DNA of 64,000 nucleotides from an uncultured Lysobacteraceae bacterium (lineage in GTDB: Bacteria > Pseudomonadota > Gammaproteobacteria > Xanthomonadales > Xanthomonadaceae), in the NCBI GenBank assembly GCA_902825775.1, contig CADECF010000005.1, positions 62,001 to 126,000 on the forward strand, written 5' to 3'. Below, in pieces: positions 757 through 4,817 of the stretch. Made by a program: the position numbers and the translations under genes. Numbering within the stretch: position 1 is the first letter of the stretch; the number at the start of each line of letters is the position of its first letter. Under the pieces are notes generated by a model, which worked only from the letters and a program-made list of their open reading frames with translations, made no database searches and was not told the DNA's origin.

Positions 757-1838
757 GAGGTCTTCGTTATTTGGCCATGTTCCACGTGGAACCAGACGTC
801 ATCCGGCTGCCGGTCCGCTTCGCTCGGCGCTTCGGTGCCGGAAATGAAGACCTGGGCCCCGCTCTGCCGTAACTTGGCCAGCAATTGGCGTTGGTGCTGA
901 CGGTCGAGCTCGGAAGCCAGATCGTCCAGAGCCACTACCGGCCATTCCCCGCGACTTTCGGCGTAATCCTCGGCCTGGGCCAGCAGGCAGGCCAGTGCGG
1001 TCAGTTTGGCCTGGCCGCGAGATAGGGCTTCGCGCCCGGGCCGGGCCGCGTAGTCGATGCGCCAATCCGCCCGGTGCGGGCCGACCGAGGTGTGACCTGT
1101 CATCAGATCCCGTTCCCGCGCCAAAAGCAGGGCATCGGCCAGGGACAGATCATGGCGGCGCCAGCCGGGCTGGAAATGCAGCATGGCCACGCCCAGCGAC
1201 GGCACCAAATCGGCTGCCACCGCCGCCAAGCGGGTCTGCAGGCGTTCCAGGTACTGTTCGCGGCGCGTGGTCAGCGGTTCGCCGGCTTCGGCCAGCTCAT
1301 GCTCCCAGGCGTCGAGCTGCTCCGGGCGCGGCCGGCTCTTCAGCAAAGCATTGCGCTGTTTGAGGGCACGAGCATAGCGCCGCCATAACGGCAGAAAATC
1401 CTGTTCCACGTGGAACAGACCCCAATCCACCCATCGCCGGCGCAGTTCGCCGCCGCCCGCGATCAGGGCATGGCTCCCCGGTTCGAAGGTGACCACTGCC
1501 AGGGCCGCGCACAACTCGCCCAGAGCGACGGCCGGGACGCCGTCGAGCCTGCCCTGCCAAGACTGCCCCGCGTGGCGCAGGCCGACGCGGCGGACGCGTG
1601 GCGAGGCCGTCTCCTCCCACTCGGCGAATATTTCCAAGGCCTCGGCGCCGGTGCGGATCAGCCCATCGCGGACCGGACCGCGAAAACTGCGGCCATAGGC
1701 CAGCAGGTGGAGCGCTTCGAGCATGCTCGTCTTGCCGGCGCCGTTGTCGCCGCTGATCCAATTGAGCGCCGGTCCTGGCTGGATCGAGACGGGTTCTAGC
1801 CGGCGCAGATCGCGGATGTCGAGCCGGGTCAGGCGCAT
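753..1838 (-). CDS. recF: DNA replication and repair protein RecF
   Basis: SMC-like ATPase that loads RecA at gapped DNA with RecO and RecR. The 361-residue length is normal for the family. Walker A is GDNGAGKTS at residues 30-38, the ABC signature appears in SRGQAKL, and Walker B is in ALDDLASELD at 303-312. The start ATG is at 1836-1838. The gene lies 73 bases downstream of dnaN in the same direction. Two parS-type ParB sites fall inside the coding sequence and are translated as FHVE both times (near residue 142 and at 350-353). The stop codon TAG comes from the end of a GTAG repeat. Confidence 0.97.
   Translation of the reverse strand: MRLTRLDIRDLRRLEPVSIQPGPALNWISGDNGAGKTSMLEALHLLAYGRSFRGPVRDGLIRTGAEALEIFAEWEETASPRVRRVGLRHAGQSWQGRLDGVPAVALGELCAALAVVTFEPGSHALIAGGGELRRRWVDWGLFHVEQDFLPLWRRYARALKQRNALLKSRPRPEQLDAWEHELAEAGEPLTTRREQYLERLQTRLAAVAADLVPSLGVAMLHFQPGWRRHDLSLADALLLARERDLMTGHTSVGPHRADWRIDYAARPGREALSRGQAKLTALACLLAQAEDYAESRGEWPVVALDDLASELDRQHQRQLLAKLRQSGAQVFISGTEAPSEADRQPDDVWFHVEHGQITKTS
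778..793. promoter_or_regulatory. parS-like ParB-binding site 1 (inside recF 3' end)
   Basis: TGTTCCACGTGGAACC matches the bacterial parS palindrome except for the last base (C instead of A). It is embedded in recF codons for FHVE near the C-terminus. ParB binds such sites near the origin to organise and segregate chromosomes. parA and parB are not in the window. Its clustering with two further copies at 1402 and 1884 supports the call. Confidence 0.8.
1402..1417. promoter_or_regulatory. parS ParB-binding site 2 (inside recF), perfect palindrome
   Basis: TGTTCCACGTGGAACA is a perfect 16-base palindrome identical to the common form of the ParB-binding parS site. It lies within recF, where it encodes FHVE. 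It is the best of the three sites in this window, spaced 624 bases from site 1 and 482 bases from site 3. Confidence 0.9.
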
Positions 1839-1883
1839 TGCGCACCGTCAAAACGACACCGCCCGGGCAGAACCGGGCGGCGA

Positions 1884-1899
1884 TGTTTCACGTGGAACT
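1884..1899. promoter_or_regulatory. parS-like ParB-binding site 3 (dnaN-recF gap)
   Basis: TGTTTCACGTGGAACT is a parS match differing only at the last base and with a T at the fifth position. It lies in the 73-base gap between dnaN and recF. It is the only one of the three sites outside coding sequence. Confidence 0.82.
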
Positions 1900-1911
1900 G
1901 CACTTCATCCA

Positions 1912-3012
1912 TCAAAGTCGCAGCGGCATCACCACATGGCGGCAGCGATCATTACTGGCTTCGCGCACCAGGGCGGATGAATTGGCATCGCGCAGGGCGA
2001 TCACCACATGCTCGTCGCGCAGCGCGGAGAGGGCATCGAGCAGGTAATTGACGTTGAAACCGATCGCCAGGCCATCAACCTTGGTGTCGGCTTCGACTTC
2101 TTCCTGCGCTTCTTCCTGCTCAGGATTGTGGGCGTTGATCTTCAGCTGACCCGGCGAAACCTCGACGCGGACGCCGCGGTATTTCTCGTTGGACAAGATC
2201 GCCGCACGCTGCAGCGAGGCGCGCAGCGCCTCACGGTCGACTTTGACTTCGCGGTCGGCGCCGATCGGGATCACCGCTTCGTAATCGGGGAAACGGCCGT
2301 CGATCAGCTTGGAAGTGAAGGTGACATCGTCGCGCTTGACCCGGATGTGGCTGCGGCCGAGTTCCAGCTCGAGCGTGCGGTCGCCGCCTTCCAGCAGGCG
2401 CTGCAGCTCCTGCACGCCTTTGCGCGGCACGATGATCTGGCGCTTGCCGCCGCCGCCGCTTTCCAGGGGCGCCTCGCACAAGGCCAGGCGGTGGCCGTCT
2501 GTCGCCACGCAACGCAGGGTCTTGTCGCCCAGGTCGAACAGCAGGCCATTGAGGTAGTAGCGGACATCCTGCTGCGCCATCGCGAAAGCAGTGCGTTCGA
2601 TCAGCTCTTTCAGCGCGGCTTCGGGCACCTGTACGCGTTCGGTCGCTTCGACTTCGTCGATCGACGGGAAATCGTTCGCCGGCAAGCTGGCCAGCGTGAA
2701 CCGACTGCGCCCGGCCTGCACGGTGATCTTGTCGCCGGATTGGCTGACCACGACTTTGCTGCCGTCGGGCAGGGCACGGACGATTTCGAACCATTTGCGC
2801 GCCGGTACCGTGATTTCGCCGTCCTGCGCGTCGTCGACCGCAGCGCGCGCGATCATCTCCACTTCCAGGTCGGTACCGGTCAGCGACAGCTGGCCGTTCT
2901 TCACCTGCACCAACAAATTGGCCAGAACGGGCAGGGTCTGCCGGCGTTCCACGACATTGACGACTTGCGCCAACGGTTTGAGCAAGACTTCGCGTTGCAG
3001 ACTGAAACGCAT
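1912..3012 (-). CDS. dnaN: DNA polymerase III beta subunit (sliding clamp)
   Basis: Ring-shaped processivity factor that tethers DNA polymerase III to DNA. The 366-residue product has the usual clamp length and three-domain layout. It starts MRFSLQREVLLKPLAQV, carries the typical TDLEVEM segment, and ends HVVMPLRL, the hydrophobic C-terminus that contributes to the partner-binding pocket. It follows dnaA across a 225-base AT-rich gap that probably contains the origin, and precedes recF in the classical order. The start ATG is at 3010-3012, preceded by a G-rich ribosome-binding stretch. Confidence 0.98.
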   Translation of the reverse strand: MRFSLQREVLLKPLAQVVNVVERRQTLPVLANLLVQVKNGQLSLTGTDLEVEMIARAAVDDAQDGEITVPARKWFEIVRALPDGSKVVVSQSGDKITVQAGRSRFTLASLPANDFPSIDEVEATERVQVPEAALKELIERTAFAMAQQDVRYYLNGLLFDLGDKTLRCVATDGHRLALCEAPLESGGGGKRQIIVPRKGVQELQRLLEGGDRTLELELGRSHIRVKRDDVTFTSKLIDGRFPDYEAVIPIGADREVKVDREALRASLQRAAILSNEKYRGVRVEVSPGQLKINAHNPEQEEAQEEVEADTKVDGLAIGFNVNYLLDALSALRDEHVVIALRDANSSALVREASNDRCRHVVMPLRL

Positions 3013-3237
3013 GCGGCCCCGATCCCTTGTGCTCTGGTTCTAAATGGAAGGAATAAACAAAAGCTGGTGGTGATGGTGTTTTAGAATTCTGTGGGTAACT
3101 AATCTAACACTATGATTCTACTTGGTTTTTAGCTATGCCGCTGCGTGCTGGTAACGGGGGTCCCGGCTACTGCACAAGCTGTGGGTAAGTTTTTGGCCTA
3201 AAACGTTCCCCATCTTATCCACAGCCCTTAACGCGAG
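3013..3237. other. dnaA-dnaN intergenic region, likely chromosomal origin (oriC) or part of it
   Basis: A 225-base gap whose dnaN-proximal half (about 3036-3135) is much more AT-rich than its surroundings, fitting a DNA-unwinding element. A perfect DnaA box TTATCCACA is at 3215-3223 on the plus strand. Two one-mismatch boxes (TTACCCACA on the minus strand) are at 3090-3098 and 3180-3188. The flanking gene order is the conserved origin order, and three parS sites follow within about 2.3 kb. The rpmH-dnaA gap (4576-4817) shows no DnaA box on inspection. Whether initiation happens here needs experiment. Confidence 0.72.
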
Positions 3238-4575
3238 TTACTCACTGAGCTTGCGAATCAATTTGTCCCAATCTTCGTGCAACTTGCCGTCGGTCTCGAG
3301 CAGGCTCCGGATCTGACGGCAGGCATGCAACACGGTCGTGTGGTCGCGGCCGGCGAACGCATCGCCGATCTCCGGCAGGCTGTGTTCGGTCAGCTCCTTG
3401 GCCAGCGCCATCGCTACTTGGCGCGGCCGGGCCAGCGAACGCGTCCGCCGCTTGGACAACAGATCCTTCAATTGCAGGCCGTAGTAGTCTGCCACGGTCT
3501 TTTGGATATTGGGGATGCCGATCGCCTGCTGCTGCGCGCGCAACAGGTCGCGCAGGGTTTCTTGGGCGAATTCCGGCGTGATGCTGCGGCCGGTGAAATT
3601 GGCGCGCGCGGCCAGCGTGTTGAGCGCGCCTTCCAGGTCGCGCACGTTGCTGCGCATCTTCTTGGCGATCAGGAAGGCGACGTCTTCGGGGATCATCGTG
3701 CCGCGCTCGCGCGCCTTGGACAGTACGATCTGCGCGCGCGTTTCGAAGTCGGGCGGCTCGATCGCCACCGACAAGCCCCAGGCCAGCCGCGATTTCAGCC
3801 GCGGCTCCAAGCCTTCGACTTCGCGCGGATAGCGGTCGCAGGTGAGGATGATCTGCTGTTTGCCGTCGAACAGCGCGTTGAAGGTGTGGAAGAACTCTTC
3901 CTGGGTGCGGTCTTTGCCGGCGAAGAATTGGATGTCGTCGATCAGCAACGCATCGACCTGCTGGAACTGGCGTTTGAAGCCGTCCATCGCTTTGTCCTGC
4001 AACGCCTTCATCATCGCGCTGAAGAACTGCTCCGAGCGCAGGTACATGACTCGCGTGGCCGGATTGTGCGCACGCATCGCATTGCCGGCGGCGAACATCA
4101 GATGGGTCTTGCCCAGGCCCGTTCCACCGTACAAAAGCAGCGGATTATGCGAGCGGTCGCCAGGCCGCGTAGCCGCTTGCCAGGCCGCGGCGCGGCCGAG
4201 TTGGTTGCTGCGGCCTTCGACGAAGTTGTCGAAGGTGTAGTGGTTGTCGAGGTTGCCGTGGAAGGGCTCGGGCGCGCGCTGCGTAGCCGGCGCATACGAT
4301 GCGGCGGCGGGCGAGGGCGCGCGTTTCAACGCGCCGATTTCCAGGCTGACTTCGGGCGTGCCGGCGAAATGCGCGAGCAGTTCGCGGATCCGTTCCAGAT
4401 AGCGGTCGCGGACCTGTTCCACCACGAAAGCGTTCGGCGCGAACAGCACCAAGGCATCGTCGCGCTGCGTGGCTTGCAGGGGTTTCAGCCAGGTGTGCAC
4501 GTCTTCGGCCGGCAGTTCGGCTTCAAGGCGTTCCAGGCATCGCGGCCAGGCATCGAGGTTCGGAGTCAGGGTCAT
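3238..4575 (-). CDS. dnaA: Chromosomal replication initiator DnaA
   Basis: AAA+ ATPase that binds DnaA boxes and melts oriC. The 445-residue form starts at the ATG at 4573-4575 ([10 protein letters not shown]), the normal N-terminus of domain I; the longer open frame upstream reads through non-coding sequence. Walker A is GGTGLGKTH at residues 150-158, Walker B is LLIDDIQFF at 210-218, and the domain IV DNA-binding signature [14 protein letters not shown] is at 409-422. The linker domain II (about 82-105) is short and rich in Ala and Pro. It is transcribed away from rpmH. Confidence 0.98.
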
Positions 4576-4754
4576 TCGGAAAGGCTGGCCGCACGACGCA
4601 GTACGTCGCGAGATAGGTCGAAGCAGGGATGCAGCCAGACTATCACCGCACCCTTGGCCGCGCATCTGCGATCGTCGGGCGACGCGATGGACGGCGCCGA
4701 CCGGTTCGGGTGGGTCGGGCGCAATCAGACCCGTAATCAGGCAGCGCTTGGCAT

Positions 4755-4784
4755 TTGACCGCGGGGCCGGCGACCCGCTATCAT
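4755..4784 (+). promoter_or_regulatory. Predicted sigma-70 promoter of rpmH
   Basis: TTGACC at 4755-4760 and TATCAT at 4779-4784 are separated by 18 bases, about 35 bases upstream of the rpmH ATG. It would drive the rpmH-rnpA-yidC transcript and lies in the divergent gap with dnaA. Confidence 0.65.
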
Positions 4785-4817
4785 TTCCGGTCTTGTTCAC
4801 CGAAACCCGGCACGCTC

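Follow-up and report, generated by a model that had tools for sequence, protein, structure and literature searches.

Three 16-bp parS-like palindromes at the left end of the window (the whole stretch of 64,000 nucleotides that was analyzed, G000:C5:62001-126000) most probably form the centromere of this chromosome. Two of them appear to be dual-coding within recF, where selection for ParB binding would set both the codons and the amino acid residues, in an arrangement that would have existed since early Gammaproteobacteria and would decay with the loss of ParB. The probability of this reading is put at roughly 0.9. A recF location of parS has been published for Pseudomonas aeruginosa, so the kind of element is already known; new here is the host, and the class-wide breadth and consequences of the arrangement were not found in the literature searched.

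The genome (3.76 Mb in 26 contigs, 98.7% complete) carries dnaA, dnaN, recF, and gyrB in this order on the minus strand at the left end of the window. The gene dnaA (3238-4800, the longest open frame, whose actual start may differ) was identified from sequence and place, dnaN for the beta clamp (1912-3012) from TIGR00663 (346.4 bits, cut-off 137.65), recF (753-1838, 361 aa) from TIGR00611 (317.6 bits, cut-off 172), and the 5' part of gyrB (1-588), which is cut by the window start and served as the gyrB query, from sequence. Two of the 16-mers are contained in recF. The site in the middle of the gene (1402-1417, TGTTCCACGTGGAACA) is a perfect palindrome, read in frame as CTG TTC CAC GTG GAA CAG (LFHVEQ) with FHVE at RecF residues 142-145, and the C-terminal site (778-793, TGTTCCACGTGGAACC) has one mismatch at an end base and is read as TGG TTC CAC GTG GAA CAT (WFHVEH) with FHVE at residues 350-353. 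The third site (1884-1899, TGTTTCACGTGGAACT), also with one end-base mismatch, lies in the recF-dnaN spacer, 12 bp past the dnaN stop. Relative to the TGTTNCACGTGNAACA-type 16-bp palindrome, the three sites carry 0, 1, and 1 mismatches. The sequence-only reading had placed all three 16-mers at these coordinates, with a perfect middle copy, a single deviating end base in the other two and FHVE encoded at both recF sites, and it was accurate on each of these points; the span that it gave for the cluster, 1402..1899, holds two sites, one of them intergenic, and omits the recF site at 778-793.

A search of the whole genome, proposed beforehand as a check on the cluster, found that the 16-mer is not common. 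Only three matches with ≤1 mismatch exist in the 3.76 Mb, and they fall in a 1.13-kb stretch adjoining dnaN-dnaA. From base composition, 0.18 matches would be expected for the genome and 0.003 for the window, and a chance origin of the 16-mers was rejected on this count; the reversed control pattern had 0 matches in the genome at the same threshold. With ≤2 mismatches, 7 matches including the three sites were found genome-wide versus 9 for the reversed control, so the four extra matches are no more than background. The distance to the DnaA-box region, earlier given as 1.1-2.5 kb, was close to the 1.3-2.4 kb measured to the sole TTWTNCACA match in the window (3215-3223, plus strand, in the dnaA-dnaN spacer). 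Chance alone would yield about one match to this box (0.89), and the origin was therefore located via the order dnaA-dnaN-recF-gyrB and not via the box.

One ParB match was present in the genome, on contig C14 and so on another contig than the sites (ORF L008:1384-2295). It reached about 200 bits with TIGR00180 (198.8 on NCBIfam, cut-off 58), and its four closest PDB relatives are all named ParB. The ORF immediately upstream of parB is ParA-like, its top NCBIfam match being a ParA model with 116 bits, under the cut-off of 180. The Noc model TIGR04285 scored the same ParB at 219 bits, above the general ParB model yet below the Noc cut-off of 315.

In ParABS systems, ParB loads on parS and slides outward, and ParA moves the origin region to the daughter cells. 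In this chromosome, ParB encoded beside the ParA-like gene would load on the three sites and slide outward across recF and its neighbors, and ParA would then carry the origin region into the daughter cells. At the two dual-coding sites, one set of bases would serve as parS and as RecF codons, so that selection for ParB binding would fix the codons TTY CAC GTG RAA and, via the codons, the residues FHV[E/K], mostly with L, V, or M before and H, Q, or P after. The arrangement would date to early Gammaproteobacteria in the GTDB sense. Clusters of parS in non-coding DNA near oriC are built of a 16-bp site bound by the ParB family; site, protein family, and region are alike in the window, and some recF-less genomes described below provide examples of such clusters. 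The window differs in that its two recF sites make up codons in a conserved gene, at positions that are fixed and homologous.

According to the passages available from the published accounts, parS1 and parS2 of P. aeruginosa are located in recF (PMC5521831, PMC3909081), ParB binds parS1-4 with high affinity, a single one of these sites being enough (PMC4368675), intragenic parS sites have been mutated with the protein unchanged (PMC5521831, PMC3909081, PMC4368675), and excess ParB lowers the expression of genes in the recF region (PMC5521831). The sequence of parS1 and parS4 is TGTTCCACGTGGAACC, identical to window 778-793, and that of the perfect parS2 and parS3 is identical to window 1402-1417 (PMC4368675). 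The likeness extends to two sites in recF near oriC, and the frame in the window gives FHV[EK]. The two organisms differ in the number of sites, ten putative ones being given for P. aeruginosa compared to three here, and probably in which 16-mer occupies which recF position, judging from the parS numbering. Class-wide conservation and an amino acid constraint do not appear in the available passages of the P. aeruginosa accounts. Neither was found in the literature searched, in the parts of it that were available, and a prior report is possible, for example, in the survey of Livny et al. 2007, which is probably the one closest to the subject.

In the available parts of the Xanthomonas accounts, Xanthomonas citri is given 'at least one' parS site, next to the 3' end of dnaN (PMC3937727, after Livny et al. 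2007), which is the place of the third site of the window, and X. campestris is credited with a single site (PMC7333895). Xanthomonas is listed with one site (PMC3937727), whereas the recF pair was also present in six Xanthomonas loci here, which points to an undercount of parS sites in some bacteria. In Caulobacter, as far as the excerpt goes, a screen of inserted parS gave hot spots over recF, gyrB, and a neighbor as well as close to the native cluster (PMC5815017); that hot spot reflects engineered insertions, while the sites of the window are native.

In the first sample of 40 genomes including the present one, each genome held 1-4 matches at ≤1 mismatch, some of them outside recF; L002 and L003, duplicates of the present locus, were omitted throughout. 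Both recF sites were present at ≤1 mismatch in 46/46 loci from named genomes (mostly Stenotrophomonas, six Xanthomonas), a set found partly via site-overlapping peptides (WVDWGLFH, QPDDVWFH) and biased towards kept sites. The recF pair, with 1 mismatch per site, was present in the six Xanthomonas loci and in the Stenotrophomonas loci, and the intergenic sites of the named loci varied in number and place, unlike the recF pair. In several Lysobacteraceae relatives, sites recurred upstream of the recF coding part.

The class sample comprised 143 gammaproteobacterial genomes, approximately one per family, with recF over the cut-off in 120 and ParB over the cut-off in 136. The sequence-only reading had expected recF to be a fixed part of the centromere. 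It is the usual carrier of parS, both sites being present at homologous positions with ≤1 mismatch in 88 and one in 21 of the 118 recF genes whose genome gave a ParB hit, but it is not obligatory, since 9/118 had neither site and recF-less lineages often use the gap between dnaN and gyrB. The middle site was found in 101/118 genes and the C-terminal site in 96/118, seven class rows in which no residue aligns at the latter position owing to truncation, a split, or misalignment, some with sites nearby, being scored as site absent. The two recF sites were spaced 600-669 bp apart (median 621, n = 88). Exactly two sites genome-wide were found in 87/143 genomes, and the reversed control pattern occurred once each in 13/143. 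The 120 recF-bearing genomes had 249 sites, of which 202 fell within recF (198 of these at one or the other homologous position), and all sites were confined to recF in 80/120 genomes; these inside-recF counts start at the aligned Met, and the stop-to-stop frame gives 205/249 sites and 83/120 genomes. The first relatives (L009-L037, with L021 and L030 lacking recF) stand outside the class counts except for G000 and G013, and G076, whose ParB hit is probably below the cut-off, was scored as ParB-bearing in the class site tallies and codon counts.

Codons at the two positions did not vary freely in relatives, which supports the sequence-only reading. Among rows reading FHV[EK], CAC, GTG, and GAA or AAA occurred together in 100/102 at the middle site and in 93/96 at the C-terminal site, the codon use of the individual genes predicting 6.6 and 6.8. 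In a codon-conservation scan of 156 recF columns, residues 144, 352, 143, 351, 141, and 145 ranked first to sixth and residue 353 eighth; seven of the top eight columns are site codons, and rank seven fell to residue 122, off the sites. The synonymous base at the third position of the F codon and the base that opens the E/K codon covary in the way required of a palindrome. At the middle site, K was accompanied by TTT in 12/12 rows and E by TTC in 58/88 (Fisher p = 1e-5), and the covariation at the C-terminal site had p = 9e-4, codon P values taking families as independent. Relative to the genes' own codon usage, TTT at the middle site was seen in 30 E rows against 51.9 expected, a clear deviation, and in 12 K rows against 8.4, a weak one, so base composition may account for part of the F-E/K contrast.

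Loss of a site was accompanied by diversification of the protein. The tripeptide following F took 46 forms in the 81 rows with a lost middle site (at least 3 mismatches) and 38 forms in the 39 rows with a lost C-terminal site, compared to 3 forms in 128 rows and 4 forms in 171 rows, respectively, where the site was kept (≤1 mismatch); kept rows read HV[EK] largely by definition, and rows with exactly 2 mismatches are omitted from the tally. F was retained in 74/81 rows with a lost middle site, and W-G stood ahead of the middle site in most rows. In ParB-bearing genomes missing the middle site alone, the residues there also varied (FHSE, FYHD, and FYRQ).

From the enteric GTDB order, 109 genomes around G290 were taken, of which 102 gave a RecF match. 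Among 80 loci with ParB, the C-terminal site was kept at ≤1 mismatch in 73, the middle site in 28, and neither in 7. Neither site was present in 15/16 loci without any ParB hit and in 4/4 with ParB hits below the cut-off (19/20 without ParB over the cut-off). Genomes with only divergent or probably plasmid-borne ParB (G426, G483, and G500), with neither site in 2/3, were tallied apart in the site counts and, along with G076, left out of the tree test; G433, with two recF loci, was scored twice in the order sample, and L160-L188 were left uncounted. With both samples pooled, a site was present in 180/196 ParB-bearing versus 2/22 ParB-lacking rows (Fisher p 1.5e-16, uncorrected for relatedness). 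On the RecF tree, ParB changed 4 times, and in the 3 supported independent pairs the site changed the same way in approximately 2 and the opposite way in none, three pairs being too few for a phylogenetically corrected test to reach significance. E. coli RecF reads FHNE and FTVE, the FTVE position being 3 mismatches from parS. According to the available passages of PMC3909081 and PMC4368675, Enterobacteriaceae and Pasteurellaceae have lost the par genes.

Some individual genomes were peculiar in this respect. A 1-mismatch C-terminal site encoding FRVE was present in G414 (no ParB hit) and G500 (divergent ParB only). The locus L055 of G169, a 95% complete genome in which no ParB was found, keeps a recF site at the C-terminal position and another immediately past the gene; parB may be absent from the assembly. 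These three genomes, like the ParB-bearing ones with neither site (9/118 in the class, 7/80 in the order), speak against the main reading. In the ParB-bearing G453, whose own recF is site-less, ten parS-like sites were located in 1.2 kb on the recF contig (L296).

The slot of recF was often occupied by parS in genomes without the gene. The repair gene recF was below the cut-off in 23 class genomes, of which 22 were searched and G056, with 0 matches genome-wide, was left out. A match was found in 14/22 and none in 8/22. In 9 of the 14 (eight and G120), the matches lay between dnaN and gyrB; in G051 and G155, a site adjoined gyrB on a locus that gave no dnaN hit, and the matches in G040, G145, and G147 did not fit dnaN-gyrB placement. 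In G147, a recF pseudogene with several stops retains a 2-mismatch parS remnant near the position of the middle site (L157), and G155, without recF over the cut-off, has twelve parS-like sites (TGTTTCACGTGAAACC) with a 43-bp period upstream of gyrB (L301:1286-1774). Outside the class, 19 recF loci from a sample of 90 genomes (one per family, recF with up to 1.5 kb on each side) had 0 sites at ≤2 mismatches, and FHV[EK] was absent at the aligned positions of the 19 RecF proteins. An origin of the arrangement beyond Gammaproteobacteria was rejected, as 0/19 of these loci had a site.

The parS likeness might be a by-product of a functional FHVE motif in RecF, arising from protein conservation and codon bias with no segregation role of its own. 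RecF is a conserved protein, and both the F retained after loss of the middle site and the W-G ahead of it fit such a motif. The codon choice at both sites, far above the approximately 7 rows expected, and the covariation of a synonymous base with E/K are hard to explain by it, and the residues after F diversify upon site loss in ParB-bearing and ParB-lacking genomes alike. The motif is also missing from the RecF proteins outside the class, and recF-less genomes place sites in the dnaN-gyrB gap. A protein motif alone was rejected by the codon, covariation, and loss data, and we regard this explanation as very improbable. Another CACGTG-binding regulator in place of ParB, for example, one controlling the dnaA-dnaN-recF-gyrB operon, is hardly credible either; occupancy of the sites could be regulatory, and the lowered regional expression under ParB excess in P. 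aeruginosa points in that direction (PMC5521831, in the part available), but the sites vanish together with ParB, and the identical 16-mers are ParB targets in P. aeruginosa according to the available text of PMC4368675.

A third possibility accepts the recF sites as genuine ParB sites and takes them for an accessory relic, the spacer site at 1884-1899 being the working centromere in this lineage. The single site credited to Xanthomonas, which in X. citri adjoins the end of dnaN (PMC3937727, PMC7333895, as far as these were available), and the recurrence of sites upstream of recF in Lysobacteraceae speak for it. However, the perfect palindrome sits in recF while the spacer site has a mismatch, the recF pair is kept in all 46 named loci where intergenic sites vary, and two-thirds of the recF-bearing class genomes (80/120) have every site inside recF. 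The sufficiency of any one of parS1-4 in P. aeruginosa, as given in the accessible part of PMC4368675, also counts against a relic status, and we consider this alternative unlikely. Preference is given to a centromere made of all three sites, in which the DNA would have shaped the protein.

Two genomes showed a concerted change of both recF sites. In G135, both sites read TGTTTCATATGAAACA with a CATATG core and encode FHMK twice (L139), and they are the only two matches to the relaxed pattern in that genome. In G062, both read TGTTCCACATGGAACA with a CACATG core and encode FHME (L066/L383), again as the only relaxed-pattern matches of the genome. From the sequences, the concerted change suggests that both sites track a shifted ParB preference.

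For most Gammaproteobacteria with recF and ParABS, the centromere is likely to be gene-embedded and dual-coding, with ParB specificity and not RecF function dictating two stretches of RecF. The residues would shift with ParB specificity, as in G135, and drift after the loss of ParABS, so that the C-terminus of E. coli RecF (MFTVEKG, 3 mismatches) would be a centromere fossil, and the recF slot would stay a parS address in many genomes after recF has been lost. If so, this is an unusually clear, class-wide case of a DNA-level function dictating the amino acids of an unrelated conserved protein, and it makes the reason for the location of parS readily testable. Shifts of ParB specificity would then be predictable from RecF sequences alone, and an FHVE-type motif conserved among aligned RecF sequences should not be taken as a sign of protein function.

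Several loci from two families of the enteric order (L196, L197, L198, L201, and L206; L231, L236, L237, and L240) have CATGTG as the core of the C-terminal recF site. The locus L313, titled Bacillus subtilis subsp. subtilis SK7B5, encodes a RecF with 65% protein identity to that of the window, as in the Stenotrophomonas matches, and its assembly is probably mislabelled or contaminated.
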